Shown one piece after another: positions 5,526-63,330 of a DNA stretch of 64,000 bases; the stretch's first letter is position 1, and every line of letters begins with the position of its first letter. This DNA comes from Pegea sp. RAD2-039 (Eukaryota > Chordata > Thaliacea > Salpida > Salpidae), in contig JAQGEQ010000174.1 of NCBI GenBank assembly GCA_034620365.1, positions 1-64,000 of the forward strand. Direction: 5' to 3'. The translations under genes and the position numbers were made by a program. The notes under the pieces were generated by a model. It was not told the DNA's origin and searched no databases. It saw only the letters and a program-made list of their open reading frames with translations.

Positions 5526-5880
5526 AAATGAAATATTTGATTTATTTTTTGTAAATTTATCTTTTAGTCTTGATTTGTTTACATTATCTAAAATAATAAA
5601 GTTTTTAAAATAGTCAGACTGACCGACGTACTCTTATTTTCCATTTTATAAAATATTATTTATACTATAAATTTTTGTAAACATGCAGTGTTAATTAAAA
5701 TCTAATATTATATAACAATAAGTAAAAACAAGAATTAAATTTTTGAGAGAAATAAAGAAAAAAATAAATGTTTTGACTGAAGCTTAGTTTAATGATAATT
5801 TTTATTAAATTAAACTAATAATATCATTATATCATCAATAACATTATCGATTGATTAAAACAATCAAAAAATTTTACCGA

Positions 5881-6000
5881 CACCACAGACATAAGATTGA
5901 ATGAAGATAATATATAACCGTATAGATTACAAGAAAAGGGTAGCATAGCATTAGATAGTTGATGCGTAGTATCTTAATTTGGACGATGCACTTTTGCATC
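5881..6000 (+). ncRNA. Sm-class snRNA-like unit, class A (AGATGCA family), copy 1
   Basis: Layout: PSE-like CACCACAGACATAAGATTG at 5881, TATATAACC at 5911, a possible 5' stem (GCATTA.. with ..TTGATGC, one G-T pair) at 5948-5965, Sm-like AATTTGGA at 5976-5983, then stem-loop GATGCA-CTTT-TGCATC at 5985-6000. A palindrome (CTTGATATCAAG) and a run of six T at 6016-6021 follow, the latter a possible Pol III stop. An ATCGATTG...CAATC box lies at 5846-5865. With a start about 30 bp after the TATA the RNA would be about 60-80 nt. Function unknown; U7, SmY and SL RNAs share the Sm-site-plus-3'-hairpin plan. The span given runs from PSE to hairpin; the RNA would be its right-hand half. Confidence 0.6.
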
Positions 6001-6182
6001 TTGATATCAAGTAAATTTTTTCATGGAAAAAATAAGGTTTCGTGTTCTTTTGAGATTTCTTGACATTTATAAGCTCCTTGTACATGCGTATTTTATTTTT
6101 CTAATCTTTATTTTATTCATTTAACAAAAAATTTTTTTAGAACAAATTTTTTTAGAAAAAGAGTTTTTTTTTACAAAATTCA

Positions 6183-6324
6183 TCAATACCACAAACGAAA
6201 GTTGTTTTTCAATTCTTGCAGAAACATCAAGATTTTGCGTTTTCAGAAAAAAAATAAATTGTATTAATATGAAGTGATCAACAGGTTTTAACAATTTGGA
6301 TAATTTTCTAAATTTACAATTATC
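6183..6324 (+). ncRNA. snRNA-like unit, class F (GATAATT family), copy 1
   Basis: PSE-like ACCACAAACGAAAGTTG at about 6187, no clear TATA, Sm-like AATTTGGA at 6293-6300, and a perfect 7-bp stem GATAATT/AATTATC with a 12-nt loop at 6299-6324, partly overlapping the Sm string. The stem is fully kept in the duplicate at 19165-19190, although a loop base and the Sm string differ. Weaker than classes A-C because TATA is absent and the loop is larger. Confidence 0.4.
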
Positions 6325-6406
6325 ACTTGACGGCTTTACACATTAAAACTAACGATAACTAAGATATTGTAATAATATTTAAAAAAATCATAATAAAATT
6401 ATAGAG

Positions 6407-6446
6407 TTATAAATGAGCTGTACCAACTCCTATGTTTGTAGTTTCA
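6407..6446 (-). promoter_or_regulatory. Orphan PSE + TATA module
   Basis: On the minus strand ACTACAAACATAGGAGTTGG is followed by ATTTATAAC (6407-6414), the usual PSE-TATA spacing. The same module is intact in the duplicate near 19274-19312. No Sm string with hairpin is seen about 100 bp downstream, so either the RNA end differs or the unit is dead. Confidence 0.35.
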
Positions 6447-6890
6447 TCAAAGATTACTCATGCTTTATTTAATTGATATTGTAATTGAAATTGAAAGTAT
6501 AATTATTATAATTTTTATAATTTTTGCTTTAATTAAATATCTAACTATTCATATAATAATTACTTTTATTTCTCTATATTGAAACAAAAACCTTTTTTTT
6601 TCATTACATTAAAAAGAATCTATTAAATTAACTAGATCTTAATTAACAGTTGTAAGCTGAAATAGCTTTATTACATCAAATTCTGAAGTTGTTAAAGTTT
6701 ATCTGAAGATAAAAGAAATTTCTAACTTTTGTTTAATGATATACATTTTAACTAATAAACCATATTTGTAGGATTAAAAGTAAAAGTAATTTTAGAATTA
6801 TAGATAATGTATGCAGTTTAGAAAAAAATTAATTTTTATTGTTTGATTCATTTAAAAAATGCAAAAATTGTATTATTTTGTTTTGACTGT

Positions 6891-6910
6891 TTGCGCCATC
6901 TAGCGGATAG
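6891..6910 (+). promoter_or_regulatory. CTCF-like site
   Basis: TTGCGCCATCTAGCGGATAG. The reverse complement of the core, CCGCTAGATGGCGC, fits the vertebrate CTCF consensus CCASYAGRKGGCRS at all but one position. Its context (a TTGCTACAA..AATATCTGAAAC tail about 15 bp later) recurs with variations at 10664, 19741, 22340 and, inverted, 58088. Confidence 0.45.
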
Positions 6911-7149
6911 AACAATTTTGCTACAATAATAAATATCTGAAACTTATTTATTCTATTTAGTCAATTGCTTTAAACTAGCTTGAGGATTAAAAATAGACCT
7001 GTTTTTTAGTAAATAATCTTCAAAAAGTAGGTTAAGCACCAGAATCTTTCATAAACTGAAATTAAGAAAAAGTATTTGAGTAAATAGTTTACATAAACTA
7101 TTTACTAAAAATTAATAATTTAATTAATTAATTAATTTAATAAAAATTT

Positions 7150-7835
7150 ACTAAAAATCCATGGTTTTACGTGAACCTTTTCAAACTGTACATACGCCCT
7201 ATTCTTGAATACAATGTCAGTGCATGGATGCCATATCAAGTTGGTGATATCAGAAAAATCGAATCTGTTCAGGCAAAATTTACGAGAATGGTTTGCAGGA
7301 AACTTAATATCAAATACGAGAGTTATAAGCATCGTCTCAGCTTCTTCAATCTAGATACTTTGGAAATCCGAAGAATTAAATACGACCTTATTCTGATTTT
7401 TAAAATTATTTACAACCTAATTGATCTTCAGTTTGATGACTTTTTCTCCATTAGTCCCTCCCTCAAGTTATATCAACTTAGAAGACATAAATTACATCTT
7501 AATAAGCCCAGTCCACCAGCTACGTTAACCAGATTAAGTTTTTTCTCATACCGCACAATCAGTACATGGAACAATCTGCCATCAGAGATTGTCATGTCAA
7601 AATCACTTATGCTGTTCAAGAAAAAGCTGAATTGTTATAACATCGCCAACATTGCCATTTCTAAACTGTGAATTTTTCTATTTTACAATACTATGATTCT
7701 GTGCAATTCTTCATTGTCATATACTTTTTCGTTTACACGTCAAATAGATCTAATTTGTGAGAATGTGTGTTAGCGAGAGGTGCTCTCTTTAGGCACCCTC
7801 CTTCACATTTATTGTAATAAATAAATAAATACGAG
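7150..7835 (+). mobile_element. 5'-truncated CR1/Jockey-like LINE, 3' end
   Basis: The reading frame at 7171-7671 (166 aa) encodes the C-terminal end of a LINE reverse transcriptase and ends IANIAISKL, closely matching the C-terminus of the long copy at 43-47 kb. A shared 3' UTR follows (GCGAGAGGTGCTCTCTTTAG) and a TAAA-type tail, AATAAATAAATAAAT, at about 7818-7832. The empty counterpart of the insertion site is visible in the duplicate near 19930-19950, so the insertion postdates the duplication, or was lost exactly from the other copy. 5' truncation is normal for target-primed reverse transcription. No catalytic domain remains. Confidence 0.9.
7171..7671 (+). pseudogene. LINE reverse transcriptase C-terminal fragment
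   Basis: 166 uninterrupted residues covering the region after the RT palm (NLFKLYIRPILEYNVSAW onward). The palm, fingers and endonuclease are absent, so no enzyme can be made. Its stop codon and 3' flank match the element at 43-47 kb, with few differences, suggesting a fairly recent insertion. Confidence 0.85.
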
Positions 7836-9047: not shown

Positions 9048-9160
9048 CTAAATAGAAATACAAAAATTTAATTTCTAGGAATCTTAAAATCTTTAAATAT
9101 AATCGAGATTTTTCTACTTTTCATTTCTCATAAGTTTAGTGCAATCTAGTGTTTGTAGGA
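9048..9160 (-). ncRNA. Probable decayed snRNA-like unit, class B-like
   Basis: PSE-like CCTACAAACACTAGATTGCA at 9141-9160 on the minus strand, with the TTTGTCAACAAA upstream box near 9210. About 95 bp downstream is an Sm-like AAATTTTTG (9061-9069) with only a weak 4-bp hairpin after it (TTCTATTTAGAA). Probably a relic. Confidence 0.25.
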
Positions 9161-9392: not shown

Positions 9393-9510
9393 GTTGAAAA
9401 GTATTTCAACTCCAAAATGGTATATACAACAACAGTTGAGTACACATTATAGTTTTTATATTTAAATATCCTTATTTATTTCTATGTCGTAATTTAGAGT
9501 TTGTGACATC
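9393..9510 (-). ncRNA. Sm-class snRNA-like unit, class B (GTTGAAA family)
   Basis: PSE GATGTCACAAACTCTAAATT (9491-9510), AT-rich TATA position (AATAAATAAGG), Sm-like CATTTTGGA at 9411-9419, and perfect hairpin GTTGAAA-TACT-TTTCAAC at 9393-9410. An upstream TTTGTCAGCAATA-type box lies at about 9551-9563. The next strings downstream include another small hairpin, AAGTT-CAGT-AACTT. Confidence 0.5.
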
Positions 9511-12470: not shown

Positions 12471-13639
12471 AGTTCTGTGCTTACCAGTCTTTGATGGAAT
12501 TTTTAGTTTAAAAGATTCATTTTCTTATTTGTTTATTTTTCAAAGGAAGAAAATTAGGTTTTGTGTTTTTTTCAGATTGCTTGTTTTTTACAAACTCCGT
12601 ATAAAAATGAGATTTCTTACTGAAGTTGCTATTTACTTTTAGTCAATTTTCCAAATATTCAACCGAAATTTTTCAACAAAATTGTTTTTTCTGCGTTGAA
12701 AATATTTTGTATTCTTGTCAAATAAATTGTAAAGTTTTAATAATTCTATGTCAAATGATTTTAAACCTAAAACTAATTGAATAAAATTAAGTGAGACATT
12801 ACTGATTTCAATACCATAATTTAAAATCTCTTTTAATTTTTAATCATTATTTTGAAATATTTATCATAAATTTTTTTCATTCAAAATATGTTTTTATTGA
12901 AATTCTTGAAACGTTTTTTTGTCAGTTGAATTGTAAATTTTCTATAATTCTAAGACTTTTTAAAATTGAACTTTGAATAAATGTTTTCTTTTAATTAGAA
13001 CTCCAAACTTTAGAAAGTTACATTTTCATATCATTTAAAAAATCTTTAAATAATCCTTTGAAAACTATTGTTAACTACTTCATAAATATTTGAAATTAAA
13101 ATATTTTTCCACAAAAAAGAATTAAACCAATAAAATTTGAATCTAAATTTTCTACAAATTATAGAAAAAACCATTTTCAAATCTAAATAGTTTTCAAAAT
13201 TAAAGGATTGCCGAGAAGACTTTAATTAAAAATGAAAATTTTGAGGTTAAAATTGGAAAAAAAATTTCAAAGATTCTATTTGTTTCTTCAACAAATTGAT
13301 ACAAAGCATTAAAAAAATATAATTTCTAAAAACATTTCAGCTGCTTTAAACTAACTAGAGGATTAAAGATAAATTTGTCGAGCTGATATTTATTGATTTC
13401 GATTAATTTATTTCAGAAGGAAATTAGGAAATACCAATTTTGCTACATAATTTTAATTTGTTTAATTGAATTCTATGTAAAAGTACTAATTTTTATGATA
13501 GAAAATTCTTCTATTCTCTACGGTATCTGTAACATATCTAAATTAATAAAAAAAACTTTTGGACGTAAAGTATGTTTACAGAATAGTTTTTAGAGAATTG
13601 AATATCGAGTTATTCAAGTTATTTAAAAATCAAGATTTC

Positions 13640-13755
13640 GTTGAAAAGCATTTCAACTACAAAATTCATTTATAAACTATCTTATTATTAATAACAAAAT
13701 CTAGAGGTACTTTTCCTTATTTATAAACTTTGCTGCAATCTAGAGTTTGTGGGAT
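13640..13755 (-). ncRNA. Sm-class snRNA-like unit, class B
   Basis: GATCCCACAAACTCTAGATT PSE (13736-13755), AGTTTATAA TATA (13721-13729), Sm-like AATTTTGTA (13658-13666; the G is followed by T rather than purine) and perfect GTTGAAA-TGCT-TTTCAAC hairpin (13640-13657). Upstream TTTGTCAACAAA box at about 13798-13810. All five promoter and RNA elements are present. Confidence 0.55.
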
Positions 13756-14172
13756 CATGCTAAAATACGATAATATTTCTAATTATAGTAATAAACTATT
13801 TGTTGACAAATAATTCTCAAATAAACAGAAAATCTTAAACAGAAAGTTTGACTTAAAGGTGAAAAACAATTTTTATTATAAATTAATTATTGGTAAGGAC
13901 AAAATTAGCATAACACTGTAATTAGTTCATAAAAAAAATTTCTTACGGAGTTTTGTTTATGTCAGTTTTACATTTATTTTTACTTTGATAATTAAATTGG
14001 AAATTGATTAGTCGTTTAACTAAAATATAGTCGACATAACTTTAAAATTAAATATTTAAACTAAATAAACTAACAGATAATACAATATAATAAATATTAT
14101 CTTTCACTTATTGTTTTTCTCTACGTAAAGTTTAACATATACAATTACGAAAATTTATTGGTTTAAACTTGT

Positions 14173-14200
14173 TCCCACAAACTCTAGATTGCAACAAGGT
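14173..14200 (+). promoter_or_regulatory. Orphan class B PSE
   Basis: TTCCCACAAACTCTAGATTG CAACAAGG: full PSE, but no TATA and no Sm-hairpin within 150 bp. It sits 162 bp upstream of an intact unit, suggesting a partial tandem duplication. Confidence 0.4.
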
Positions 14201-14334
14201 AATAATAAGTTAAAAATTTAATAAATTATACATATTATAATAAATATACAAATATTTGATATACATAGTTTTATTTTAACCTTGACAAAGAGAGTATTAT
14301 TTATAAACAAAAATTACCAGTAAAATTTGAATTT

Positions 14335-14468
14335 GATCCCACAAACTCTAGATTACCACAAAGTTATAAATAGTCAAAAGTAAATTAATAATTTCGACTA
14401 CTACTTCTAGTAGACTAGTCAAACAGCAAGCCTTGTTTGGAAATTTGGAGTTGAAATAATTTTTCAAC
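14335..14468 (+). ncRNA. Sm-class snRNA-like unit, class B
   Basis: PSE GATCCCACAAACTCTAGATT at 14335, TATA GTTATAAA at 14363-14370, Sm-like AAATTTGGA at 14441-14449, hairpin GTTGAAA-TAATT-TTTCAAC at 14450-14468. The body holds two candidate stems (CTACT/AGTAG near 14400 and CAAAC/GTTTG near 14420-14440). The unit at 28203 is its duplicate but has lost the perfect stem. Confidence 0.55.
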
Positions 14469-15079
14469 GAATCTGTTATTTAAAAAAAAGTTGAGTAACT
14501 GAGTTAAGTCACTTGATTTACCTTTTATACAGAAAATGAAGTAAAACTAATTTAGGTAAAAAGTTTATTTCATTTTTTTAAAACCTTACTGATAAATGAC
14601 ATATTATTTGAAAAAGTATCTAACTTTCAAATAATTAAGTAAAATTATTTACAGCATCACTAAAAACAAAGTTTCTTAATATAAGATTTACATTTCGATA
14701 ATTTTATAACAATTATTACTTGGGGTAAACTTTAAAAAATCTTTGTTGAAATGTTCTACTTGAGTGCACAGCAAATTTGACTTTATCGAAAGTTGTTTCA
14801 TTTTATTATTTTCTATCTTAATATATTTTTTATTTTATCTAAATGATATCTTTTTTTCTCCACTTTTTTTAACTTTGGAGTTATCATGAAGATTCAACTT
14901 TTTATAAAAATTAGTGAAATGCTTTTGGAGTTCTAACAGCAGTTTTTCGCTATTTAATAGAGATATGCAAGCATCTTAAAAATTATTTTTTACATTTAAT
15001 TCAAATTTTCTGTATTATTTGAAGTAGTATTTGTCAACAAATAGTTTATTATTAAAATTAGAAAAAATATCGTATTTTA

Positions 15080-15195
15080 GATCCCACAAACTCTAGATGG
15101 CAACAACGTTTTTAATTAATGAAAAGTAAATCTTTCAATCATTTCTTCATGACAACAAATCGTTTACATAGTTTTGAGTTGAAATACTTTTCAAC
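15080..15195 (+). ncRNA. Sm-class snRNA-like unit, class B
   Basis: PSE GATCCCACAAACTCTAGATG, weak TATA (TTTTTAATTAA; the duplicate has TTTATAATT), Sm-like AGTTTTGA at 15170-15177, perfect GTTGAAA-TACT-TTTCAAC hairpin at 15178-15195. Upstream box ATTTGTCAACAAAT at 15029-15042. The body is almost the same as in the copy at 60741. Confidence 0.55.
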
Positions 15196-16108
15196 GAAAC
15201 TTCATTCAGTGAATCAGTAGAAAATTTTAAGTTCCTATTTTCTAAAAAAAATTGACAAACAACTTGATTAGTTTAAAGTTATTTCTTTTTCATATCGTTT
15301 AATCAAAATAATTATATTTCTTTGACAAGCTTCATTTATCAAAGAGTTTAATATTTTCAGTATTCATTCCTTACAATAAGATTTGACTTATAAGATGGTA
15401 TCGTGAGATAACACATATATTGATATAAAAACATCTTCTGATCAAAAGATTAAGGAAATTAAAAGTCATTAAGGAACTAATTTTATATTTTTGAATTAAT
15501 TGGAAGAATATTTTGATTATTTTTGACCGACACGCAGTAGTTTTAATGCAGTTCACAGATTTAAGATCTATTTATTATTATAGAGAGATTTAAGAGTTGT
15601 TGAAATTATAACTCGCATTTTCAATTATTCATTTTTGATTCAAAGAAACGATTTATGATGAAACAGTCTTTAAAAACGTCAAATTAAAGTTTTAGATGTT
15701 TCTTAATGATCATGAAGAATTTAAACAATTTTATTTTTATAAAAATTGTTTAGATAACATAAAATACCCAAAGAAGAAAGTAAGGAATTTAATAAATGAT
15801 GAATCCTAATATATTTAAAAGAAATTAAAAAGAAAATTACTAACAGCAAACAGAATTTAAAAGCTTTCGAGCAATTTAGAGAAAACGCTCAATCCTGATG
15901 TTCTTATGAAAAACAATATTAGTTTGTGGCATCGATAGATTTTGGGCATAAAAAAACGCTTGTTTGTTAAAAAATGTTGATTTAAATGCATAAAAAAAAT
16001 TAGAAGAAAATTAACTTACACTTGTTTAGAAAAAATATGTAGACATCAAGCAATCTCAAAAAAACACAAAATCTTATTTTTACCTTGGAAAAAACTTTCT
16101 TGATAATC

Positions 16109-16230
16109 AAATGCAAAACTGCATCTTCCAAATTAATATTGTTATCCAGAGAAGTAATAAAATGATATAACTTCTTCGTAAGCCTTACGGTTATATAGTA
16201 TCTTCATTCATTCTTATGTTTGTGGTATCG
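16109..16230 (-). ncRNA. Sm-class snRNA-like unit, class A
   Basis: PSE GATACCACAAACATAAGAAT, TATATAACCG (16191-16197), body with a 6-bp stem AGAAGT/ACTTCT (16150-16155 with 16170-16175), Sm-like AATTTGGA (16127-16134) and hairpin AGATGCA-GTTT-TGCATTT (16109-16126, one G-T pair). Downstream TTTTTT lies at about 16092-16086. It forms a divergent pair with the unit at 16794; a CTAGACGG box (16510-16533) lies between them. Confidence 0.6.
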
Positions 16231-16793: not shown

Positions 16794-16908
16794 GCCACAA
16801 ACATAAGTTCTTATGCAGATTATATATAACATTTACAAATCCATTTTCCCTGAAATACCAAATCCAGTATTTATAAATGCAATATTTGGAAGATGCAATT
16901 TTGCATCT
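16794..16908 (+). ncRNA. Sm-class snRNA-like unit, class A
   Basis: PSE GCCACAAACATAAGTTCTTA, TATATATAA at 16821-16829, 5' stem AAATAC/GTATTT (16853-16858 with 16867-16872), Sm-like ATATTTGGA (16882-16890), perfect hairpin AGATGCA-ATTT-TGCATCT (16891-16908), then TTTTT at 16925-16929. Its body sequence is unrelated to those of the other class A units, although the layout is the same. Confidence 0.62.
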
Positions 16909-18758: not shown

Positions 18759-18878
18759 TACCACAAACATAAGATTGAATGAAGATAATATATAATCGTA
18801 TAGAATACGAGAAAACAGTGTTTTAGCATCAAATAATTGATGCGTAGTATCTGAATTTGAATGATGTAACTTGGCATC
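18759..18878 (+). ncRNA. Class A unit, hairpin weakened
   Basis: PSE TACCACAAACATAAGATTGA, TATATAATCG at 18789, a perfect 7-bp 5' stem GCATCAA-ATAA-TTGATGC (18826-18843), Sm-like AATTTGAA (18854-18861), 3' hairpin degraded to GATG..CATC (18863-18878). The upstream ATCGATTG..CAATC box is intact. The 5' stem is better here than in the duplicate at 5948 while the 3' stem is worse. Confidence 0.5.
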
Positions 18879-22865: not shown

Positions 22866-22980
22866 GCACCACAAACAACAGACTTAAACCATTTTTACAT
22901 ATTCCGATTTTATTATCGTAAAATACTTTTGTATCACAGGGCTGATAATACATATAATTTAGAAACTGCCAAAAGCAGTT
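22866..22980 (+). ncRNA. Sm-class snRNA-like unit, class C variant (AACTGC stem)
   Basis: PSE GCACCACAAACAACAGACTT, TATA-like TTTTTACATATT, Sm-like AATTTAGA (22956-22963) and perfect hairpin AACTGC-CAAAA-GCAGTT (22964-22980). Relative to the AACTGA/TCAGTT units at 35 and 40-42 kb, both sides of the last base pair have changed together (A-T to C-G), with a different loop. The body and flanks are otherwise unlike those units. Confidence 0.55.
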
Positions 22981-23934
22981 GACAATTTTCAAAACTAAAT
23001 TGATGATTAGTTGAACAATTGTTGTTATTCGAATTGTTATTTCATTTAGAAAATCTAATTTAAAGATTATATACAAGGAGCTTATTAATAACCAAATTGT
23101 AAAGCTAATTATTAAAACATTTCTTTTATCTAAACATTTTATTTTAGGGCCCTTAATTATTTTTGTATGAGTTATAATTATGATTGAAATTGTATATGAA
23201 ACTAATAAAAATTACTCCACACAAAAATGCAGATTTCCAGCATACTTTGTTTACAATAAATAACAACAACAACAACACATATTTTTAAAATTATTTATAT
23301 AGTCTTTCTTTGAATTTACCAAATCCTTATTTGAGTATAGAGGCCTTATAACTGACATCATTCTGATTTAAACAATTTATAGAATTGTTGAAACAAATGT
23401 TAAGAAAAAGCTTTGATGATTATATTTCAATTTATCTTCATATTTTTATTTTATGCAGTAAGTTTTTTAAAGTAGATCACAAGCAATTATTTTAAACCAA
23501 AAAAAGTAGAAAAAACTAAATCTAATACTTTTTGTATTTGAAAGTTTAATATCATTGAACATTTTTGTAATTACCATTTACAGCATCCTTCATTGGTTAA
23601 ATAACATAATTCTATTTGTTGATTAAGAGATTGCTTCAACTTTTTTCCGATTAGTATTTACACAAACGAAATTATATGGTATTATACACGTGTAATTAGT
23701 AATTTTTAATTATAAATGTCAAATTTGCTGCTTAACTCTCTATTTTAACTATAATTATTATTAGATTTACTTTAGTTGCTCAAATAAAAGTTTTTATTCG
23801 TAATTATCAAATACAATTATATTAAAAGATTCACAACAATGAAATAAACCTGTGAGCTAAGTTTTATGTCTGTCAACTTTAGTAAAGAACTTGAGATATT
23901 CAACTTATTTATTAAATAAAGTTTTATTGATAAG

Positions 23935-24041
23935 TAATTTAACTCCAAATTTATAATCCGCTAAAAACCTTAAATGCTGATTGAAATATTCTTTACTTTT
24001 CATTTCTTATCAGTTTGTTGCAATCTAGAGTTTTTGAATCA
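23935..24041 (-). ncRNA. Decayed class B unit
   Basis: Damaged PSE AAAAACTCTAGATTGCAACA, CTGATAAG at the TATA position, intact AAATTTGGA (23943-23951), stem lost (GTTAAATTACTTATC). Upstream TTTGTCAACAAA box kept near 24075. Confidence 0.3.
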
Positions 24042-25161: not shown

Positions 25162-25276
25162 GTTGAAAGTATTTCAACTTCGAATTTGGTTTGTAATTCA
25201 ATCTTTACAATCATCTGAGAACTTCTCAGATTTCTTCGGTTATATCAATTTTGTCACAATCTATAGTTTGTGGGAT
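25162..25276 (-). ncRNA. Sm-class snRNA-like unit, class B (3-nt loop)
   Basis: PSE GATCCCACAAACTATAGATT (25257-25276), GATATAACCG (25237-25246), hairpin GTTGAAA-TAC-TTTCAAC (25162-25178). The Sm position reads AAATTCGAA, so it is degenerate. The CTTGATCCCACAAAC start lies back-to-back with the class A unit at 25644. Confidence 0.45.
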
Positions 25277-25643: not shown

Positions 25644-25758
25644 ATACCACAAACTTAAGATTGTATGCAAATTAATTATAACCCTTTGAATACTGAGGGC
25701 ATTCTTTCCGTAGCCCAATTTTTCATAATATAAATTAGCAAGATGCACTTTTGCATCT
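25644..25758 (+). ncRNA. Sm-class snRNA-like unit, class A
   Basis: PSE ATACCACAAACTTAAGATTG, TTATAACC (25676-25683), GGGC/GCCC body stem (25697-25700 with 25713-25716), weak Sm string AAATTAGCA, perfect hairpin AGATGCA-CTTT-TGCATCT (25741-25758), TTTTT at 25774-25778. The body also holds AATTTTTC at 25718, a possible alternative Sm string. Confidence 0.52.
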
Positions 25759-27019: not shown

Positions 27020-27600
27020 TAATAAAATTACACTTTCAAATATCTAAAGTTAAAGATTATTAATAAATGAAACAGAATCTAGCAAAAGTTAATCTACGAT
27101 TTACAGACTACCATGTTTTTAAATACTTCAATATTTGTAAAGGTTTTATCGACACGTAGTCGACTTCAAATTAAGTTATATAGAATTTTATATTTACACG
27201 CAATGTTGTTAGAATAAAATTAGAATTGCTGTTAAAAATTGCTTGTTAAAAAATGATTTTTATTCTAGTGTTTGTGGGTTAAACACTGATTTATCGCTGT
27301 AAGAAGAAACCCACAAAGCCACGATTAAAATTATTTTTTTAGGTTAAAAAAAAAATTAAAAACTCTTTCTCTATGTATTGTATTTCTAAAAATTACCCCA
27401 AACTAAAAAGTTTCAAATTTTATATTAGTTTTGTCAAAAACTCGTACAAATCTCCACAGTGTTTAAAAAACAAATAACACTTATAGAACTAATAAGCTGG
27501 TAAATATAAAAATAATAAAAAAGTTTGTTTTTGTAATCTTATAACTCAATAAAATTTACTTAATTATTGAATCTAATTAAAATCAAAAATATTAAGAATA
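27020..27600 (+). repeat. Segmental duplication (direct partner 29880-30470; 37580-38250 is an inverted relative of 26460-27150)
   Basis: Shared strings include TTACAGACTACCA.GTTTTTAA, GTGTTTGTGGGTTAAACACT and CCCCAAACTAAAAA. The stretch from 26000 to 27000 carries no unit and no ORF. Confidence 0.65.
27149..27282 (-). ncRNA. snRNA-like unit, class D (TCGAC family)
   Basis: PSE AACCCACAAACACTAGAATA (27263-27282), TATA position only T-rich, Sm-like AATTTGAA (27165-27172), hairpin TCGAC-TACGT-GTCGA (27149-27163). The PSE core is itself the loop of a perfect dyad AGTGTTT...AAACACT (27267-27287). The whole unit is duplicated at 30019, where the loop differs (TAAAT). Confidence 0.45.
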
Positions 27601-28202: not shown

Positions 28203-28331
28203 GATTCCACAAACTCTAGATTACCACAAAGTTATAAAGATTCAAAAGTAAAGTAAATTTTCCCATCTCTACTAAATGTCTTTTTAAAACTTTTTAGATA
28301 ATCAAATTTGGAGTTGGAATACATTCTCAAC
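28203..28331 (+). ncRNA. Class B unit, hairpin imperfect
   Basis: PSE GATTCCACAAACTCTAGATT, TATA GTTATAAA (28231-28238), Sm-like AAATTTGGA (28304-28312), then GTTGGAATACATTCTCAAC with two mismatches. The duplicate at 14335 keeps a perfect stem. Confidence 0.4.
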
Positions 28332-30018: not shown

Positions 30019-30136
30019 TCGACATTTAGTCGACTTCAAATTAAATTATTTTCCAAAATACAAAAACAAGAAAATTGGAATCAGCGCTAGAAATTGCTTA
30101 ATAAAAACTATTTGTATTCTAGTGTTTGTGGGTTAA
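30019..30136 (-). ncRNA. snRNA-like unit, class D, second copy
   Basis: PSE AACCCACAAACACTAGAATA, Sm-like AATTTGAA (30035-30042), hairpin TCGAC-TAAAT-GTCGA (30019-30033). The PSE dyad is intact (30121-30141). Confidence 0.45.
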
Positions 30137-33142: not shown

Positions 33143-33260
33143 ACGCCACAAACTTAAGATTGAAACAACTTTATAAATACTGATGAAACCATTAGCATTT
33201 CGTGGTCCAATAAGTGATATATCTTTGTAGAATACATTTTGGAGTTGAATAAATTTCAAC
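33143..33260 (+). ncRNA. Sm-class snRNA-like unit, class B (GTTGAA stem, 5-nt loop)
   Basis: PSE CGCCACAAACTTAAGATTGA, TATA TTTATAAA (33170-33177), Sm-like ATTTTGGA (33236-33243), hairpin GTTGAA-TAAAT-TTCAAC (33244-33260). A GCC..GGC string (ATGCCGGGCATTGTGGCAT) lies about 45 bp upstream and recurs, degraded, before the copy at 36594. Confidence 0.55.
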
Positions 33261-35812: not shown

Positions 35813-35933
35813 AGCTCACAAACACAAGGCAAACACGTTGTTATATAGACCATTTAATTTACTACGATCTTATCTCTTTTTTTTGTATGAAAGGTTTTAC
35901 TGTTTAGAATTTTGAAAACTGATACGGTCAGTT
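35813..35933 (+). ncRNA. Sm-class snRNA-like unit, class C (AACTGA family)
   Basis: PSE GCTCACAAACACAAGGCAAA, TATA TTATATAG (35841-35848), Sm-like AATTTTGA (35908-35915), perfect hairpin AACTGA-TACGG-TCAGTT (35917-35933). The minus-strand copies at 40111 and 42260 have the same stem with different loops. Confidence 0.58.
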
Positions 35934-39347: not shown

Positions 39348-39464
39348 AACCCACAAACATTAGAGTAAATATTCATGATTAGTATGATGATTCTGTTCGA
39401 CCTTCCACACAAGAAATACCGCCGAAAGGCATTTACAATTTGGAGTGTTGAACATTTTTCGACA
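39348..39464 (+). ncRNA. Sm-class snRNA-like unit, class E (TGTTGAA family)
   Basis: PSE AACCCACAAACATTAGAGTA, TATA position ATTCATGATTAG, body mini-hairpin GCC-GAAA-GGC (39421-39430), Sm-like AATTTGGA (39437-39444), hairpin TGTTGAA-CATTT-TTCGACA (39446-39464, one T-G pair). The PSE sits in a dyad AATGTTT...AAACATT (39339-39361). Confidence 0.5.
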
Positions 39465-40110: not shown

Positions 40111-40233
40111 AACTGACAGCATCAGTTTTCAAATTTAAAGTAAAATTAAAAGCTATACAAGCAACAGTTTGTTAATCTGGTATAAAATTGAATGCCTTAT
40201 ATGACAACATACTTTCTTTTTGTTTGTGAGCTC
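40111..40233 (-). ncRNA. Sm-class snRNA-like unit, class C
   Basis: PSE GCTCACAAACAAAAAGAAAG, TATA CATATAAGG (40196-40204), Sm-like AAATTTGAA (40128-40136), perfect hairpin AACTGA-TGCTG-TCAGTT (40111-40127). Confidence 0.52.
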
Positions 40234-42049: not shown

Positions 42050-42970
42050 ACTTCTTTAAAGTAGTATGATGGCATCAACACAACGAAAACAGAAAAAATT
42101 ATGAAAATTTTTAAATGAATCATTCTACATATTTGTTTACTGAAGACAGTGTCATTTAGAATTTACGTAACAAAAGAATGACACAAAATATGAAAGAAAA
42201 GATCAAGCTCACTGCATTCTTTTATATCATTGAATACAATAAATCTTGTTGTTAAGTGCAACTGACAGTATCAGTTTTCAAAATTCTCAATATTATTTCT
42301 ACTGTTAAATTCATAGACGGATAAGATTGTAATAAATTTAATGCTTTTTATAACAACGTGCTTGCCTCGTGTTTGTGAGCTCATTTTATATAATTTTTTA
42401 TGGTTCCAACGCAAATCTTAAATTATAATAATGTTTAAGACCTTTTTCACTCAAACTTGATGCTTTGAAAGTAAATATAATTTTTCAGGGAATTTTGTTT
42501 TATTGTTTTTTTGAGTTTATGTCAGATTTATTTTGTTTTTTGTTTCAAAAATAGTTTTATTTTTCTGAATGTAAGTTTTTTTATCGTTTCAAAAGTTCAA
42601 TAGTTTTGAATCAGTGGTTTTTAACTGATTGATTTTCTCACATTTGTTAAACGTTTTTAATATAACATCTTAGCTTTATTTTTAAAACCATTTCAAAAAT
42701 CATGAAACTAAACTAATTTTATTTCTTAATAAAATAATTATATTTAAATTGATAAAATTAAAAACTATGAAATGCTTACAGATTTAAAAAAAATCTGCAA
42801 CTAAATATCTAGATACCATAACAAATTGAATGTTTTTACTCTGATTTTAATTTATTTTAATAATTTTTCTTTTTAACTTTATCATAAACAAGTTTAATAT
42901 TTATTAAACTTATTTATAAGCTGGATAACAATTTTATTAAAACATTTTTGTTAAGAAGTCTATTTTCTGC
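42050..42970 (-). repeat. Inverted partner of 34960-36140
   Basis: 42420-42860 reads as the reverse of 35340-35800 with small differences, and 42940-43003 as the reverse of 35090-35130. The LINE at 43-47 kb interrupts the continuation. Confidence 0.65.
42260..42382 (-). ncRNA. Sm-class snRNA-like unit, class C
   Basis: PSE GCTCACAAACACGAGGCAAG, TATA TTATAAAAAG (42344-42353), Sm-like AATTTTGA (42278-42285), perfect hairpin AACTGA-TACTG-TCAGTT (42260-42276). Part of an inverted duplication with 35.3-36.1 kb. Confidence 0.56.
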
Positions 42971-43169
42971 TGCATTTTATGTCGTTTATTAGTTCATAAC
43001 TTATTTATTTATTTATTTATTTATTACAATAAATGTGAAGGAGGGTGCCTAAAGAGAGCACCTCTCGCTAACACACATTCTCACAAATTAGATCTATTTG
43101 ACGTGTAAACGAAAAAGCATATGGCAATGACGAATTGCACAGAATCATAGTATTGTAAAAGAGAAAAAT

Positions 43170-45242: not shown

Positions 45243-45249
45243 ATGTTTA

Positions 45250-45970
45250 TACTGTTATAATTGCCATGATAAAAGTTCCGTATGCTTGGAGTTCTAACGT
45301 TCGAGGAAGTTTACAAAGACATGACTCAGATTGGCTAAATTAGTTTTGTCTCCATTCAAATTAAACATTTTTCCATTGAATGCTAAATTTGGGTTATTCC
45401 AATCAATTCTACTAAAATTAAAATCCCCGAGAATATACATCTCAGGACAAACAAGGCTTTTCAGAACCTTCAATAAGGCCTTAATAGTAACCTCAACTTT
45501 AGACGGTGGTAGGTAGGTACATATAAAGCGGGAAAACTTAGACTTTGTGTAATGAAAATTGAAAGCAATAATCTCAAATCCTGGGCAATCAATGGTGAAT
45601 ATCTTAATTCTTTAAATCATGGGTGCCAGTGATGTTTTATAGATTACACAAACACCGCCGCCTCTATCAAACAGTCTATCACAGCGCAAAGCACGAAAAA
45701 GATCACTGTCGTCCTGAAAGGAGTCAGGATAAAAGGGTTTCAACTAAGTTTCGGTAATGAAAACAAATGTAAAATCTTGAGAAAGGAAAAGAGCTTTCAA
45801 TTCGAAAATTTTGTTAACGATTGACCGTGCGTTGAAAAACATACCTAATATAATAGAAAAATTGTCTTTTTGACACTTGTAAGATTTGGTGGTAGGCTTC
45901 TATGTACTGGTATCTTGGGCTGGAAGCATAGTATTAATAATTTTGTGCGAAGAGAGGTTGAATAAGGATG
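45250..45970 (-). pseudogene. LINE AP-type endonuclease remnant
   Basis: Minus-strand reading includes FFNARSIVNKIFELKALL, FVFITET, DRGGGVCVIYK and MYILGDFNFSRIDW in the order expected of LINE endonucleases (target nicking). Several stops and at least one small indel break it. Confidence 0.75.
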
Positions 45971-45985
45971 ATGTGGGTCCAGTGG

Positions 45986-46980
45986 TTATTTTGCACTTCC
46001 GTTTTTTGAAAAGACCTTCACAATCTTTAAAGCCCATGGTGAACCTCGAACTTTGTATTTGAAATCAGTTGGTTGCTCTTTCTGATTTCGGCTGTACGCC
46101 TCGTTTAGAAGACGCTTATTTTCTAAGCGATCATCTTCACACATATCATATGCTACTCTGACGCCCTGGAACTTTTCTTCCTGCTTAAGCTTATACAGCT
46201 TAGCAAGAAACTTACGTTTGTCCCATCTTTCCTGAAAGGAGACTTTTAACGGTCTTTTATGATTTGATCTTTTTGCCCCGAGTCTGGTTATTGAAACTTT
46301 TGAAGCGTCCACAAAACCAAGGCTTTGAGTGCACATTTGATTAAAAGTCTTGATGTCATCGTCTCTATCAGTCTCAGAGACACCAAAGATGATGACATTG
46401 TTTTCTCTATCCTCCCGGTCCAGAGTAAGTTTTTTGTGCGTGTCAGTAACCTTCTTGGCAAGAAGTTGCACCACGCTAGTATTTTTTAGGATCCAGAATT
46501 ACCAACAACTGAGGCCCATGTGAGAGGCTTCTTTGTGGAGGCATCCAGTTCATCCATAGATTTGGATAAGATAGAAATCTTTTCATTGTTTTTGGCAACA
46601 TCGTTGCCAATTTCGGATTTAAATTTGGCCAATTCAGTGGATATGGTGTTGCTGATGTTGGACAATAGGCTTTTATTAGTGTTAGACGAGGTAGTTGTTT
46701 TGTCCATAGATCTACATTTAATGCAGGACCAACAAAATCCCACTTGCTGCATTTTATTATTTTCAAATATATAATAAATTTTTTTACTCACATCACTACA
46801 AGTAAGGTGAAACCTAGAGAGGCATTTGATGCAATCTATTGCCAGATCTTCACCAAAGCAAATTTTGTTACAAGCTTGGCAATTGCCATTGCAAGCTTGT
46901 TATGAAGAACTTGGTTTGCTTGGGTTTTTTGGAGCTTTTGACCACAAGGTCCTGCCATTTGTATCTACTATAGTTTCCAT
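45986..46980 (-). pseudogene. LINE ORF1 (PHD-like finger, coiled coil, RNA-binding C-terminus)
   Basis: Starts at METIVDTNGR (46980). A Cys/His cluster, CNGNCQACNKIC..CIKCLSRFHLTC..CWSC, resembles a PHD finger, followed by a helical segment (46.5-46.7 kb) and the ENNVIIFGVSET domain (46.47-45.99). A stop near 46910 and a frameshift near 46480 separate the parts. ORF1 proteins of this type bind the element's RNA. Confidence 0.75.
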
Positions 46981-53096: not shown

Positions 53097-54176
53097 ACAA
53101 TTCCGTCATAATAAGACTTAAATAAGATGTTATTATCTGGCTTAAATGTTGTATAATACCAGTATCTATTTAGATTTATTTAAACACATTTATCTAACTA
53201 TAGTGTGATTAAAAATACTGTTCTTTTATGTTATTTGAAAATTTATATTTATAAACAGTATGAAGTTATTATAAATTTTCTTATTCTCACAATTGAGATC
53301 TTTAGAGGTTAAGCTGAATCAGATGAATCTCATTAATTTTTGGATGATATTTCTTGTGCTTCCACAACTTCTAAAAATTGTTCGTTTGCTTCTTGGTTTG
53401 AATGTTAGTTATCTTATTAAAAGGTTGCATATTTTATGCATTCTTGTTCAAAATCAAGCAACTCAAAATTTTATAAAGTATAAATGATTAATAAATTATC
53501 AATTAATTAAACCTAAGATCTTTTCTCGACTTGTTCACTACGTAAAAATTTGTTACATTTCTTAAAATGTGATAGAAAATACAAGTTTAGTAATTTTGTT
53601 TTAAAATAATGTTTATTGCTGCCAGTTACATCAAAATACTCGCTTATTTGGTTTTTTAATTTTATTTTAATATAAGCCAAACTTGCAGAATCCCTTTTCT
53701 TAAAAAGAAAAACATTGCTTCATTGTAATATTTAACACTTTTTAACATTTATCTAAATTCTGCTCTGTAAATTCATTATTTAACCAAACTTTGTCTATCT
53801 ATTAAAGAGATTGAAAATTGATTTACACCAATTAACTGTTTGCAAATTAAAAGTTAAAAAATTAAGAGATAAAAGCTTTTAAGTATATAGTCAATAACAC
53901 AAAAGAGTTACTATAACCATAAATAACCGTTTAAATAAACATAAACGTTTTTTGCTGAAATTACAAGAAAAAATCAGAAATAATTAAAACCAACGAAACT
54001 CTAAAATGTTGTTAGAAAAATAATAAAAATAAAACAAGAAATACCAAAAAGTAGGATGAGACAATATTTATCTTTATATGATCTTTTTTCTGATTACTTT
54101 GAATCTAATTAATGTAAGTGGTTTGATGGTATGAAAGACTTGCATGATGGCGAAATTGATTTCCACACACTATTCA

Positions 54177-54899
54177 TTAAATTTGTTTTTCACCAGTATG
54201 AGTTCTTTTATGTTGTAAAAGAAGGTCATTTCGACTAAACTTTTTTCCACAAACAAAGCATTCATATGGTTCCTCACCAGTATGAGTTCTTTGATGTCTT
54301 ATGAGATCTGAATTTTGTCTAAACTTTTTTCCACAAACAATACATTCAAATGGTTTCCCACCAGTATGAGTTCTTTCATGTGATAAGAGGTTTGAATTTT
54401 GACTAAACTTCTTTCCACAAACAAAACATTCAAATGGTTTCTCACCAGTATGTGTTCTTTCATGTGATAAGAGGTTTGAATTTTGACTAAACTTTTTTCC
54501 ACAAACAAAACATTCATATGGTTTCTCACCAGTATGAATTCTTTCGTGAACAATAAACTGAGATCTGTAACTAAAGCGTCTACAACAAATCAAACATTCA
54601 TATTTGTCTTTGCCATTTGAAATTTTCTTAAACATAAGTTTGTTTTCTTCTTTTCCACTATTTTCTGCTGAAGCACTTATTTGGGTAGAAACGCTTTTCT
54701 TAGTTGTTGCATTTTCTATTTCATTGTTTGAACTGACTTCATCAAAGTTAATTCCGTGCCAGCTATCAAATTCACTAACACATTCATTATCATTTTTCTT
54801 GTTAGGTGTTTCACCTCTAATGTTACTTTCGTTTGATAACAACTTATGTCTACAATCAGATTCTTTGTCATCCATTAAATTCAGTTTCAACTTGTTGAG
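54177..54899 (-). CDS. C2H2 zinc-finger protein with five fingers
   Basis: 237 residues from MKLNLMDDKE (54890) to the stop at 54177. Residues 1-95 are acidic/Ser-rich and unstructured. Then five tandem fingers follow (YECLICCRRF, YECFVCGKKF, FECFVCGKKF, FECIVCGKKF, YECFVCGKKF), each ending in H-x3-H with the HTGEKP linker, so all Cys2His2 ligands are present. Fingers 2 and 3 carry the same recognition helix (SQNSNLLSHER), a recent internal duplication. A sequence-specific DNA-binding nuclear protein is expected; the target is unknown. A good acceptor (CATGTAG, 54900-54906) lies in frame just before the first Met, so this may be the last exon of a longer gene; the upstream exon was not identified. 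Confidence 0.85.
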   Translation of the reverse strand, partial: LNKLKLNLMDDKESDCRHKLLSNESNIRGETPNKKNDNECVSEFDSWHGINFDEVSSNNEIENATTKKSVSTQISASAENSGKEENKLMFKKISNGKDKYECLICCRRFSYRSQFIVHERIHTGEKPYECFVCGKKFSQNSNLLSHERTHTGEKPFECFVCGKKFSQNSNLLSHERTHTGGKPFECIVCGKKFRQNSDLIRHQRTHTGEEPYECFVCGKKFSRNDLLLQHKRTHTGEKQI

Positions 54900-54959
54900 C
54901 TACATGTAAACAAAACGTTTGTTTTTAGTTTAGTAAAAAGTTAAAAAAAAATATATTAT

Positions 54960-56822: not shown

Positions 56823-56936
56823 GTTGAAAAGTATTTCAACTCCAAAAATATCATCTGTTGAAACTAGAATAACCTTGATACTTTTCAGAATTTCTCAGTA
56901 TTTATTATTTTGTTTTAATCTAGAGTTTGTGGGGGT
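56823..56936 (-). ncRNA. Sm-class snRNA-like unit, class B, best Sm site
   Basis: PSE ACCCCCACAAACTCTAGATT (56917-56936), AATAATAAATA at the TATA position, Sm string ATATTTTTGGA (56841-56851; fits the canonical A-U4/6-G-purine form), perfect hairpin GTTGAAA-TACT-TTTCAAC (56823-56840). Five consecutive T inside the RNA argue against Pol III for this class. Confidence 0.6.
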
Positions 56937-60740: not shown

Positions 60741-60856
60741 GATCCCACAAACTCTAGATGGCAACAACGTTTATAATTAATGAAAAGTATATCTTTCAAA
60801 CGTTTCTTCACGACAACAAATCGTTTACATAATTTTGAGTTGAAATACTTTTCAAC
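60741..60856 (+). ncRNA. Sm-class snRNA-like unit, class B
   Basis: PSE GATCCCACAAACTCTAGATG, TATA TTTATAATT (60770-60778), 5' stem AAACG/CGTTT in the body, Sm-like AATTTTGA (60831-60838), perfect hairpin GTTGAAA-TACT-TTTCAAC (60839-60856). Upstream GTTTGTCAACAAAT at 60685-60698. A complete example of the class. Confidence 0.6.
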
Positions 60857-61764: not shown

Positions 61765-61886
61765 AGATGCAAAACTGCATCTTCCAAATTAGCATATAAA
61801 GTTCAAATTACGTGATAAAACGATTTCATTTCTCCGTAAGCTTTATGGTTATATATTATTTTCATTCAATCTTATGTTTGTGGTAT
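61765..61886 (-). ncRNA. Sm-class snRNA-like unit, class A, divergent body
   Basis: PSE GATACCACAAACATAAGATT, TATATAACC (61849-61855), Sm-like AATTTGGA (61783-61790), perfect hairpin AGATGCA-GTTT-TGCATCT (61765-61782). Between AGCTTACGGAG and GCTAATTTGGA the body is unlike that of the otherwise near-identical duplicate at 16109. Confidence 0.6.
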
Positions 61887-62169
61887 CGGTAAATTTTTCG
61901 ATTGCTGTAATCAATCGATAAAGTTATTGTTCATATTATTTTTTCAAAGATACTATTAGTTCAAATTAAATTTAAGTATCATTAAACTGAGCTTCCATCA
62001 AAAACAGTTATTTTTTTTTCTTGGTTCAACTAAATAATTAAGTATTTTATAAATTAAAAATTAATAGTACATTGGTTACTAGGACTATTTAAAATCTTTA
62101 TTGTTTTAGATAATGTAAACAAATCAGGAAAAAAAGATAAACCTACAAAAAACAAGTCGCCTGTTTCCT

Positions 62170-62193
62170 TTTCCGCTACTTAGCGCTAGACGG
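62170..62193 (-). promoter_or_regulatory. CTAGCGC-type box
   Basis: Reads CCGTCTAGCGCTAAGTAGCG then GAAAAGG on the minus strand, 285 bp upstream of the class A unit at 61886. It has a cleaner CTAGCGCTA core than the duplicate at 16510. Confidence 0.4.
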
Positions 62194-62684
62194 TTTGTTT
62201 TCAAAAAACACTTAAAAATAAACGTCATTTATTATAATTATAATATTTTTTGGTATTACTTTCAGTTTAAAGAAAATATTATATAACATATTTAGACATA
62301 TTTGTTTTTTTTTGGAATCTGGAAAAGGTTAGTAAGTCATATAATTTCCATTCTTAAAAGTTAATTTTACCTTTTGTAAATTGATATATCAACGGCAAAA
62401 AATTACAATTTTTAAAACATTAGAATCAAAATTATATTATTTGATATTTTATCTCATGATAGTAAAAAGAACAGCATTGCCAAGCTGATATTTAATGATT
62501 TCGATTAAATGATAATAAAAAGCATAATACTAGTTTTTTTGAATGAAAAGTTTTCAATTAGTAAAAAATCTGTCATATTACTAATAACATGTTTACAAAA
62601 AAATTTTGTGATGAATAATAACTCAAGTTAATAGATTTATTGATTATTTAAAGTTTCCTTGTAAAGAAAAACTTTGAATTTAAC

Positions 62685-62783
62685 TCCAAATTTACAAACT
62701 TTGCAATCCTTTACGAAAGAATGAGCTTTATTTTACTTTTCATTTCTTATAAACGTTGTTGCAATCTGAAGTGTATGGGATCA
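62685..62783 (-). ncRNA. Class B unit without stem
   Basis: PSE variant GATCCCATACACTTCAGATT, TTATAAG TATA, Sm-like AAATTTGGA (62685-62693), followed by GTTAAATTCAAAG instead of a hairpin. Upstream TTTGTCAACAAA box at 62828. Confidence 0.3.
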
Positions 62784-62953
62784 AGTTCAAATGAAATTAA
62801 TTTTATAATTTTATTGATAAGCATTTTGTTGACAAAAATTGTTATAAAAGAAAATTTGATTTAAAGTTGATAAGAAAATTTATTTTAAGTTTACTATCAT
62901 ACAAACCAAATTAGTTTAAGTTTCTTATCCAGTTGTATTTCATTCAAATAATC

Positions 62954-63073
62954 AAATGCAAAACTGCATCTTCCAAATTAGTATTGTTATCCAGATAAGA
63001 AGTAAAATGATATAACTTCTTCATAAGCTTTACGGTTATATATTATCTTCATTCAATCTTATGTTTGTGGTAT
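62954..63073 (-). ncRNA. Sm-class snRNA-like unit, class A
   Basis: PSE GATACCACAAACATAAGATT, TATATAACCG (63036-63042), 7-bp body stem AAGAAGT/ACTTCTT (62997-63003 with 63015-63021), Sm-like AATTTGGA (62972-62979), hairpin AGATGCA-GTTT-TGCATTT (62954-62971). Compared with the unit at 16109, small indels changed the body loop but kept the stem. Confidence 0.58.
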
Positions 63074-63231
63074 CGGTAAATTTTTCGATGGCTTTATTAA
63101 ATCGATATAGTTATTGTTGATATTAATGTTATAAAGATGCTGTTATATATAACTTTAATATCGTGTTTTTAACTAATATTAACTATAATTAACTTATTTA
63201 TTATTTAAAGTTTAGTTGTAAAGTACGTTAG

Positions 63232-63330
63232 CTCCAAATTAAAAAACTTTGCAATCCTTTACGAATGATTGAGTTTTATTTTACTTTTCATTTCTTATAA
63301 ACGTTGTTGCAATCTGAAGTGTATGGGAAC
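63232..63330 (-). ncRNA. Class B unit without stem
   Basis: PSE variant GTTCCCATACACTTCAGATT, TTATAAG TATA, Sm-like AATTTGGAG (63232-63240), then CTAACGTACTTTACAAC, which does not pair well. Confidence 0.3.

Follow-up and report, generated by a model that had tools for sequence, protein, structure and literature searches.

As far as is known, Sm-class RNAs form a modest number of conserved RNAs per genome, and the question raised by one stretch of DNA from the salp Pegea sp. RAD2-039 is what a whole cluster of short units resembling small nuclear RNA (snRNA) genes, each with a different 5' body, could be for. The stretch (the window) takes up bases 1 to 64,000 of the 170.8-kb contig C261, in an assembly of 105.7 Mb and 387 contigs; below, C with a number denotes a contig of the assembly, and L with a number a locus outside the window. 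We show that the units share a promoter element with the genome's own snRNA genes, that their modules keep a fixed order and spacing, that they occur in clusters, and that in several families their 5' segment is hypervariable.

The explanation towards which we lean, if only a little beyond an even chance, is that the units encode a repertoire of Sm-class ribonucleoproteins (RNPs) with diversifying 5' guides, laid out like U7. In this scenario, each unit would be an independent snRNA-type gene of RNA polymerase II (Pol II). SNAPc, the presumed activator, would bind the proximal sequence element (PSE) CCACAAAC(ac)TaAA, and TBP, likewise presumed, would bind a TATA box 25-27 bp from the PSE start (+25-27), with transcription beginning near PSE+56. 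The product would be a capped RNA of about 50-80 nt. Its 22-49 nt segment from the predicted start to the Sm string (hereafter the guide) would precede an Sm site (AATTTGGA to AATTTTTGGA), with a hairpin at the 3' end. Hairpin and Sm ring would stabilise the RNA as an RNP, leaving the 5' segment exposed to find targets, in the simplest case through base-pairing. Several families would have guides under diversifying selection or local hypermutation on a constant chassis, while one class of units, class E, would keep a single guide constant.

A promoter element shared with the snRNA genes

The element CCACAAAC occurs 28 times in the window, on both strands, where about 0.55 occurrences are expected from base composition. 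A coding origin was considered for it and holds for 4 of the 28 copies (54247-54499, in a C2H2 zinc-finger gene), which are not units; the copy at 51225(-) looks like the same zinc-finger repeat and is not a unit.

Searches of the genome gave 19 matches to U2, 15 to U6 and 19 to U1 (doubtful weak ones: 2, 2 and 1, respectively). We examined 49 snRNA loci, in five of which (L026, L027, L038, L041 and L042) the gene start could not be placed. Among the placed loci, a CCACAAAC-like element lies upstream of 15 of 17 U2, all 12 U6 and all 15 U1 genes, with the exact letters in 14, 5 and 9 of them, respectively; the U2 loci L023 and L025 have no PSE-like element upstream. Distances were taken from the 35 distinct snRNA promoters where the element was found: from the start of the element to the gene they are 55-57 bp in U1 and U2 and 58-64 bp in U6. 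The U5 copies examined carry CCCACAAATACCAAA at the same upstream place. Thus CCACAAAC is the PSE of this genome. Given the element-to-start distance in the snRNA promoters, the predicted start of the units lies near PSE+56, and the predicted unit RNA would measure about 50-80 nt. A second type of U1 was seen at L054, L055 and L057, which start with AAACTTACTTGGC rather than ATACTTACCTGAC and have their own PSE; these appear to be a U1 variant with an altered end for 5'-splice-site pairing.

For the comparisons across the genome, units had to have a PSE, a stem and one of a list of Sm strings, and the removal of L004 (the same as the window) and of sequence duplicates reduced 60 of them to 55. 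A TATA box lies at +25-27 from the PSE in 50 of the 55 units, compared with +23-27 in seven U1, U2 and U5 promoters and +31-33 in four U6 promoters. Runs of four or more T precede the hairpin in 48 of the 55 (T5 in 12). Transcription by RNA polymerase III is unlikely because of these runs and because the spacing of PSE and TATA is of the Pol II type. An earlier interpretation made from the letters of the window (the sequence-only reading) had taken the element and the TATA-like box for an snRNA-type promoter, and the U1, U2, U5 and U6 loci bear this out. We infer transcription, Sm binding and the start site of the units.

The promoter element is also concentrated in the window. A weight matrix trained solely on the snRNA genes finds 28 sites scoring at least 12 there, and 0, 0, 1, 1 and 5 in five shuffles drawn as first-order Markov samples; it finds 2 and 2 sites in two neighbouring 10-kb stretches of C261, and none in either of two 10-kb stretches on other contigs. 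Downstream, a vertebrate-type 3' box is matched with a mean of 1.45 mismatches in the 55 units, which are not independent of each other, and 1.95 in mononucleotide shuffles.

Order, spacing and extent of the units

When the CCACAAAC copies of both strands are lined up, many show the same order of PSE, TATA-like box, body, Sm-like string and hairpin. Six hairpin classes can be told apart, which differ in sequence and pair alike: GTTGAAA...TTTCAAC (A), GATGCA...TGCATC (B), AACTGAT...GTCAGTT (C), GTCGAC...GTCGA (D), GTGTTGAAC... (E) and AACTGC...GCAGTT (F). Stems that differ, each able to pair, occupy the same place after the Sm string. We count 27 units with a recognisable PSE in the window (12 of class A, 7 of B, 3 of C, 2 of D, 2 of E and 1 of F):

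5883..6000, + strand, class B unit: PSE variant CCACAGAC, TATA, guide, AATTTGGA, hairpin GATGCA-CTTT-TGCATC
9393..9506, - strand, class A unit: PSE TCACAAAC; guide exchanged with respect to 20488 and L101
13640..13752, - strand, class A unit: copies L007 and L008 differ mostly in the guide
14339..14468, + strand, class A unit: long guide, unlike the guides of L002/L005 and 28207
15084..15195, + strand, class A unit: Sm-like GTTTTGA; closely duplicated at 60745, guide included
16110..16225, - strand, class B unit
16795..16907, + strand, class B unit
18761..18878, + strand, class B unit: weakened Sm string AATTTGAA
20377..20488, - strand, class A unit: Sm-like ATTTTTGA
22869..22980, + strand, class F unit: hairpin AACTGC-CAAAA-GCAGTT; Sm-like ATTTAGA
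23926..24037, - strand, class A unit: decayed PSE TCAAAAAC
25162..25273, - strand, class A unit: Sm-like AAATTCGA
25647..25757, + strand, class B unit: decayed Sm string
27149..27277, - strand, class D unit: guide replaced relative to 30131, remaining DNA alignable
28207..28331, + strand, class A unit: paralogue of 14339 with a different guide
30019..30131, - strand, class D unit
33146..33260, + strand, class A unit: guide unlike that of the paralogue L100
34781..34894, - strand, class E unit: guide conserved, with GCC-GAAA-GGC ahead of the Sm string
35816..35933, + strand, class C unit: hairpin AACTGATACGGTCAGTT
39351..39464, + strand, class E unit
40111..40229, - strand, class C unit
42260..42378, - strand, class C unit
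56823..56932, - strand, class A unit: canonical Sm string ATTTTTGGA; copies L058, L115, L116 and L117
58962..59081, + strand, class A unit
60745..60856, + strand, class A unit: duplicate of 15084
61766..61883, - strand, class B unit
62955..63070, - strand, class B unit

In all 12 units that the sequence-only reading gave as examples, each of the five parts was found. Its claim of a cluster on both strands stands; its number, about 35 genes, does not, as the 27 units are joined by one decayed unit at 11423(-) and two Sm-hairpins that lack a PSE at 28712(+) and 37593(+), which brings the whole to about 28-30. Two places, 6189(+) and 19054(+), form a possible further class that was left out of the count: they have a PSE (CCACAAAC and TCACAAAC) and no TATA, and near +104 stands AATTTGGA or AATATGGA, with GATAAT...ATTATC as a possible long-loop stem after it. 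A repeat CCAAAAAGTGAAAACAGTTTT(T)GTACATGCAATAAAATA(A/T)ATAA, with a weak PSE score and a TATA-like string, was also seen at 10521(-), 22192(-) and 58239(+).

As the filters for units demanded a stem, the unbiased test of the stems is the scoring of Sm-plus-hairpin modules downstream of [CT]CACARAC sites. With a loose definition, a module lies 76-125 bp downstream of 20 of 39 such sites, compared with 598 of 8000 random positions (7.5%); with a stricter one, the values are 12 of 39 and 67 of 6000. By 50-bp bins, modules follow 16 of the 39 sites at 50-99 bp, 4 at 100-149 bp, a bin that alone is not above the others, and 0-4 in each of the other 14 bins. About half of the 39 sites scored without a module, and among them are 28207, 34894 and 58962, which are units by eye.

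Genome-wide, the pattern CCACAAACN{74,104}TTTGGA has 571 matches and its reversed control 41. When the PSE and TTTGGA are set at a wrong spacing, N{204,234}, there are 71 matches, again with 41 for the reversed control. Matches are enriched at the spacing between element and module that the sequence-only reading had described as almost fixed. The figure of 571 is not a clean count of genes, because among the matches listed for it 13 lie on C46, 11 of these in one coding-like repeat for which a coding origin of the element is likely, and because one PSE appears twice among them; both points weigh against taking every match for a unit. The string CCACAAACTCTAGATTGCAACAA, at up to 3 mismatches, has 260 genome matches and none for its reversed control, and the places listed lie on a limited set of contigs. 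Other clusters with other hairpins were found on C72 (at least 14 places) and C22 (at least 17), with fewer on C23, C36, C91 and C12. The C72 units carry AATTTTTGGA or AATCTTTGGA as Sm string and, for the most part, ACCGTCGAAATGGCGGT as hairpin; in the nine units measured, the guides span 22-26 nt. A large and diversified family is therefore present, at hundreds of places and in several clusters across the genome.

Two other sources of such repeats were considered and rejected. One viral contig in IMG/VR (L102) carries the 17-mer, and no Sm-hairpin was seen after it, so that the match is taken as chance. A transposable element does not fit units that exchange the body and retain the flanks on either side; no search for element ends or target-site duplications was made.

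The hypervariable 5' segment

The window is rich in segmental duplications and strongly self-similar, and the likeness of units alone therefore proves little. More telling is how the likeness is distributed within a pair. Between the units at 14339 and 28207, identity is 0.88 upstream, 0.96 in the PSE, 0.54 in the body, 0.85 in the Sm string and hairpin, and 0.85 and 0.80 downstream. The body identity is 0.49 in the pair 9506/20488 and 0.50 in 27277/30131, so that in these three window pairs, whose flanks align, the bodies are at the level of shuffled sequence. In other window pairs the body is kept (0.91 in 15084/60745 and 0.97 in the class E pair). The units at 13752 and 18761 were not placed in their classes in this comparison.

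We compared five regions in each of 112 close pairs drawn from the 55 distinct units; the units at 20488, 28207, 58962, 60745, 34894, 16795, 18761 and 25647 fall outside the 55 or duplicate listed ones and were looked at separately. The guide is the least conserved of the five regions in 15 of 16 C72 pairs and 14 of 18 window-type pairs. Mean identities within families, in the order upstream, promoter, guide, Sm string plus hairpin and downstream, and with L103 and L104 (altered PSE) left out of the alignments, are as follows:

C72a family: 0.991, 0.993, 0.741, 0.979, 0.967
C72b family: 0.960, 0.982, 0.823, 1.000, 0.962
13752 locus: 0.993, 0.988, 0.871, 1.000, 0.988
14339 locus: 0.925, 0.919, 0.533, 0.907, 0.790
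56932 locus: 0.918, 0.937, 0.685, 0.929, 0.864
20488 locus: 0.706, 0.841, 0.569, 0.873, 0.670
class B: 0.794, 0.881, 0.556, 0.844, 0.632

In the C72, 13752 and 14339 copies, and in most of the 56932 copies, change begins near the predicted start and ends at the Sm string. The sequence-only reading had already described variable bodies; in several families (C72 and the window types), these are the fastest-changing part of the locus.

We also applied Fisher tests to seven pairs of our own choosing, taken from the close pairs and the family alignments, comparing guide columns with columns of untranscribed flank and scoring gapped columns as differences. The changes in guide and flank are 8/22 vs 6/213 (p=3e-6), 4/31 vs 0/202 (p=3e-4), 4/27 vs 3/206 (p=4e-3), 23/47 vs 7/186 (p=4e-13), 18/32 vs 46/201 (p=2e-4), 29/49 vs 47/184 (p=2e-5) and 5/23 vs 6/210 (p=2e-3). 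These pairs bear on a competing explanation, in which the units are a decaying snRNA-like repeat family that spread by segmental duplication, with gene conversion homogenising promoters and tails while functionless 5' segments mutate at transcription starts. The heavy self-similarity of the region and decayed units such as 11423, 18761 and 25647 agree with such a family. However, in the seven chosen pairs the guide differs more than the untranscribed flank on either side, and the Sm string and hairpin remain intact beside changing guides (identity 0.98-1.0 in C72). We therefore regard a decaying family as unlikely, if well worth weighing.

Class E argues in the same direction. In its 8 aligned copies the guide has an identity of 0.983 and the flanks 0.931 and 0.872, which is the opposite of the pattern of the other units on the same contigs. 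In the Fisher comparison, for which L110 was added for class E, changes number 0/30 in the guide and 39/204 in the flank of one pair (p=0.004), and 1/30 and 30/203 in another (p=0.14). The 5' part of class E contains GCC-GAAA-GGC, a stem with a GAAA loop, before the Sm string, and units L109, L111, L112 and L114 of this class, which the filter behind the alignment did not orient, have an altered PSE. Since there is no clear TATA in the class E promoter, and since the bases from +36 to +56 are nearly invariant, its transcript may start earlier than in the other units. The system contains constant and diversifying members alike.

Several observations weigh against a repertoire of diversifying guides. 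Part of the likeness among units stems from common segmental duplication, and indels counted per column make up part of the Fisher contrast in 14339/L005 and 27277/30131. As elsewhere, variation in the 20488 and B families ends at the Sm string, but it sets in 10-20 bp ahead of the predicted start, so either that start is inexact or the limit of the variable part is. The guide is the least conserved region in only 14 of 78 C22 pairs, the C22 guides being fairly constant, and the class E guide is the most conserved part of its unit rather than hypervariable. Many Sm strings have three U only and some are decayed (the Sm string or PSE is weakened in several units, among them 18761, 25647 and 24037), and good PSE matches at 9158(-), 14175(+) and 27996(-) have no module. 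Finally, a functionless mutational effect acting at transcription starts could also explain the rapid change of the guide. The constancy of the class E and C22 guides argues against a mutational hotspot at the guide position as such, and the reversed contrast of class E, 0/30 vs 39/204, indicates that the effect does not go with the position in general.

The search for targets also weighs against guides, and it agrees with a decaying family. At up to 3 mismatches, and with guides of 22 and 25 nt as queries, GGATTGTCCCATAGGAGACCCC has 4 genome places, all of them units (L070, L096, L103 and L104, two of which have an altered PSE). The guide TAGACTAGTCAAACAGCAAGCCTTG has 6 places, of which 4 are units (the window, L008 and two on C64) and the other two, on C273 and C275, fit a duplicated block by position only. 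The class E guide has 21 places, and the 12 inspected are all units. No near-perfect target or donor was thus recognised genome-wide for three guides at up to 3 mismatches, in a search that is blind to U7-type pairing of 10-16 nt with gaps and to foreign targets. The guides fold no better than shuffled sequence (mean z -0.12 in 30 units), as expected of single-stranded guides. If the units do act as guides, as we propose, they would probably be directed against fast-changing RNA, such as selfish, viral or fast-evolving messenger RNA. A germline-encoded, rapidly diversifying repertoire of Sm-RNP guides, amounting to RNA-guided surveillance built on small nuclear ribonucleoproteins (snRNPs) instead of Argonautes, is a possible but doubtful extension of this.

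Relation to known small RNA systems

PIWI-interacting RNA (piRNA) genes offer a second way to account for variable transcript starts. If the units were SNAPc-driven genes of this type, the snRNA promoter would, as in nematodes, have been co-opted for the production of many short capped precursors, their first 20-30 nt would be bound by Piwi, and the Sm-hairpin would be a remnant of processing or termination. The units are clustered in AT-rich DNA, they are independent and of SNAPc type with variable transcript starts, and their guides are of the right order of length in most cases (22-38 nt). Nematode piRNA genes with a SNAPc-related Ruby motif likewise occur as clustered units with an snRNA-derived promoter and a variable start, and the piRNA and SNAPc motifs are almost identical in Plectus sambesii and P. 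murrayi (excerpts of PMC6436959). However, the Sm string and hairpin of the units keep an identity of 0.84-1.0 in the family alignments while the guides change, class E keeps one guide in 21 places, and no first-U rule is clearly visible at the predicted start in 26 non-redundant units. The predicted RNA of 50-80 nt also differs from the 28 nt of the nematode system. In the excerpted text, nematode Pol II snRNA and piRNA loci have no TATA box, and no Sm-hairpin module is described for the piRNA loci (PMC6436959), whereas the units have TATA, Sm string and hairpin. We judge a piRNA origin rather improbable.

Spliced-leader (SL) RNA genes with many different leaders, in a polymorphic SL system, would have the same promoter class and the same Sm-hairpin tail as the units. 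SL RNAs can be very short (46 nt in Ciona), rotifers and other small animals trans-splice, and the detection of SL RNAs relies on a GT donor that has an Sm site and stem loops after it (PMC7986045, in part). Such a donor between leader and Sm site does not recur across the units. Between PSE+55 and the last base of the Sm string, 8 of the 55 units (6 of them related C72 units) have no GT, GTRAG occurs in 2 of the 55 guides only, and a GT position is common only to close copies, such as the 56932 and C22 families, and not to classes. A polymorphic SL system is therefore very unlikely.

U7 is itself a Pol II snRNA gene whose product is laid out as a 5' pairing segment, an Sm-type site and a 3' hairpin; its sequence is single and conserved, and its Sm site is of a special kind. 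At about 60 nt (excerpt of PMC7026596), it is close in size to the predicted units. The units differ in occupying hundreds of places, in their hypervariable 5' parts in several families and in having largely AATTTGGA and AATTTTTGGA strings; their 5' segments vary between and within families, class E alone being constant. SmY RNAs are a small multigene family of short Sm RNAs with stem-loops flanking the Sm site, a conserved first stem-loop and 12 genes in Caenorhabditis elegans (excerpt of PMC11229312). The first part of the units, except in class E and C22, is variable, with neither a conserved sequence nor, as judged by the folding of the guides, a conserved first stem-loop.

A high-copy set of conserved helper RNAs of SmY or U7 type, for trans-splicing or histone processing, would match the units in size and in the order of parts, and class E, which is conserved, high in copy number and provided with a GAAA-loop stem before the Sm string, would suit it best. 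Yet a helper needs a constant 5' part, which is absent in classes A, B, D and C72, and this disfavours the role. No Rfam family reached its gathering score in the window, and the U7 model found nothing in the window or genome, where the genome-wide control was silent too; weak window matches to mir-463 and snoMe18S-C1367 (E<=5) are taken as chance. We consider helper RNAs the least probable of the alternatives. The functions proposed in the sequence-only reading are hence not equally likely, as the GT counts speak against trans-splicing and nothing positive for trans-splicing or a histone role was seen here. Its interpretation as a whole is supported.

Two further systems resemble an Sm-RNP repertoire in part. 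The Class I RNAs of dictyostelids measure 42-65 nt, are multi-copy with a large variable part, have an snRNA-type upstream element (DUSE, with two or three C) about 60 nt before the start, and preserve a stem as structure rather than sequence; they differ in an 11-nt motif, a stem that joins both ends and a mainly cytoplasmic location, and the excerpted account notes no Sm site (PMC7919456). The units, in an animal genome, have an Sm string and a 3' hairpin, and their 5' parts have no common motif. Of 12 unit RNAs that were folded, nearly all confine the hairpin to the 3' part, although the model of 56932 pairs its ends.

The Herpesvirus saimiri U RNAs (HSURs) are seven RNAs, longer than the units. 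They are Sm-class RNAs of differing sequences that act via microRNAs and messenger RNAs (excerpts of PMC6763288 and PMC13158664); they are viral, whereas the units are a genomic repertoire of an animal. The features compared here do not identify the units as U7, SL, SmY or Class I RNAs. None of the nematode piRNA, Class I, SmY and SL systems is described with this set of features in the excerpted accounts (PMC6436959, PMC7919456, PMC11229312, PMC7986045), and a non-exhaustive literature search found no comparable hypervariable snRNP family.

If a guide repertoire is the correct reading, this would be the first known snRNP repertoire with a constant promoter and tail and a 5' end that is hypervariable in several branches, at hundreds of places. 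It would suggest that an snRNP can be used as a programmable guide particle, with a natural U7-like chassis carrying many guides, and it would bear on the origin of piRNA genes from snRNA genes.

The surroundings of the units are poor in GC (20-36% in 2-kb steps). The window has a BTB-Kelch gene at its left end, LINE (long interspersed nuclear element) reverse transcriptases, the C2H2 zinc-finger gene and long stretches without long frames; it contains no tRNA genes, and one locus elsewhere in the assembly has a frame that we take to be Frizzled-like. A search of the assembly for COX1 found none, and the top relatives in LINE, BTB-Kelch and PGAM5 searches came mainly from metagenomes. The unit spacing of 13628-15700 is repeated on at least six other contigs (C64, C109, C267, C273, C286 and C287), with 94-95% identity on C109 and C267, the two that were measured. 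These copies are apparently haplotypes or recent segmental copies. The zinc-finger gene (54160-54900) has diverged copies along C261 (L058 and L059) that are interspersed with snRNA-like units. A LINE with reverse transcriptase lies at 43010-46900; positions 7140-7831 hold a 697-bp piece that matches 43706-43010 at 96% identity, which suggests recent activity of this element. Lastly, a coding tandem repeat rich in glutamine and glutamate (EEKRLQQEEKR) is present at 38376-39120.

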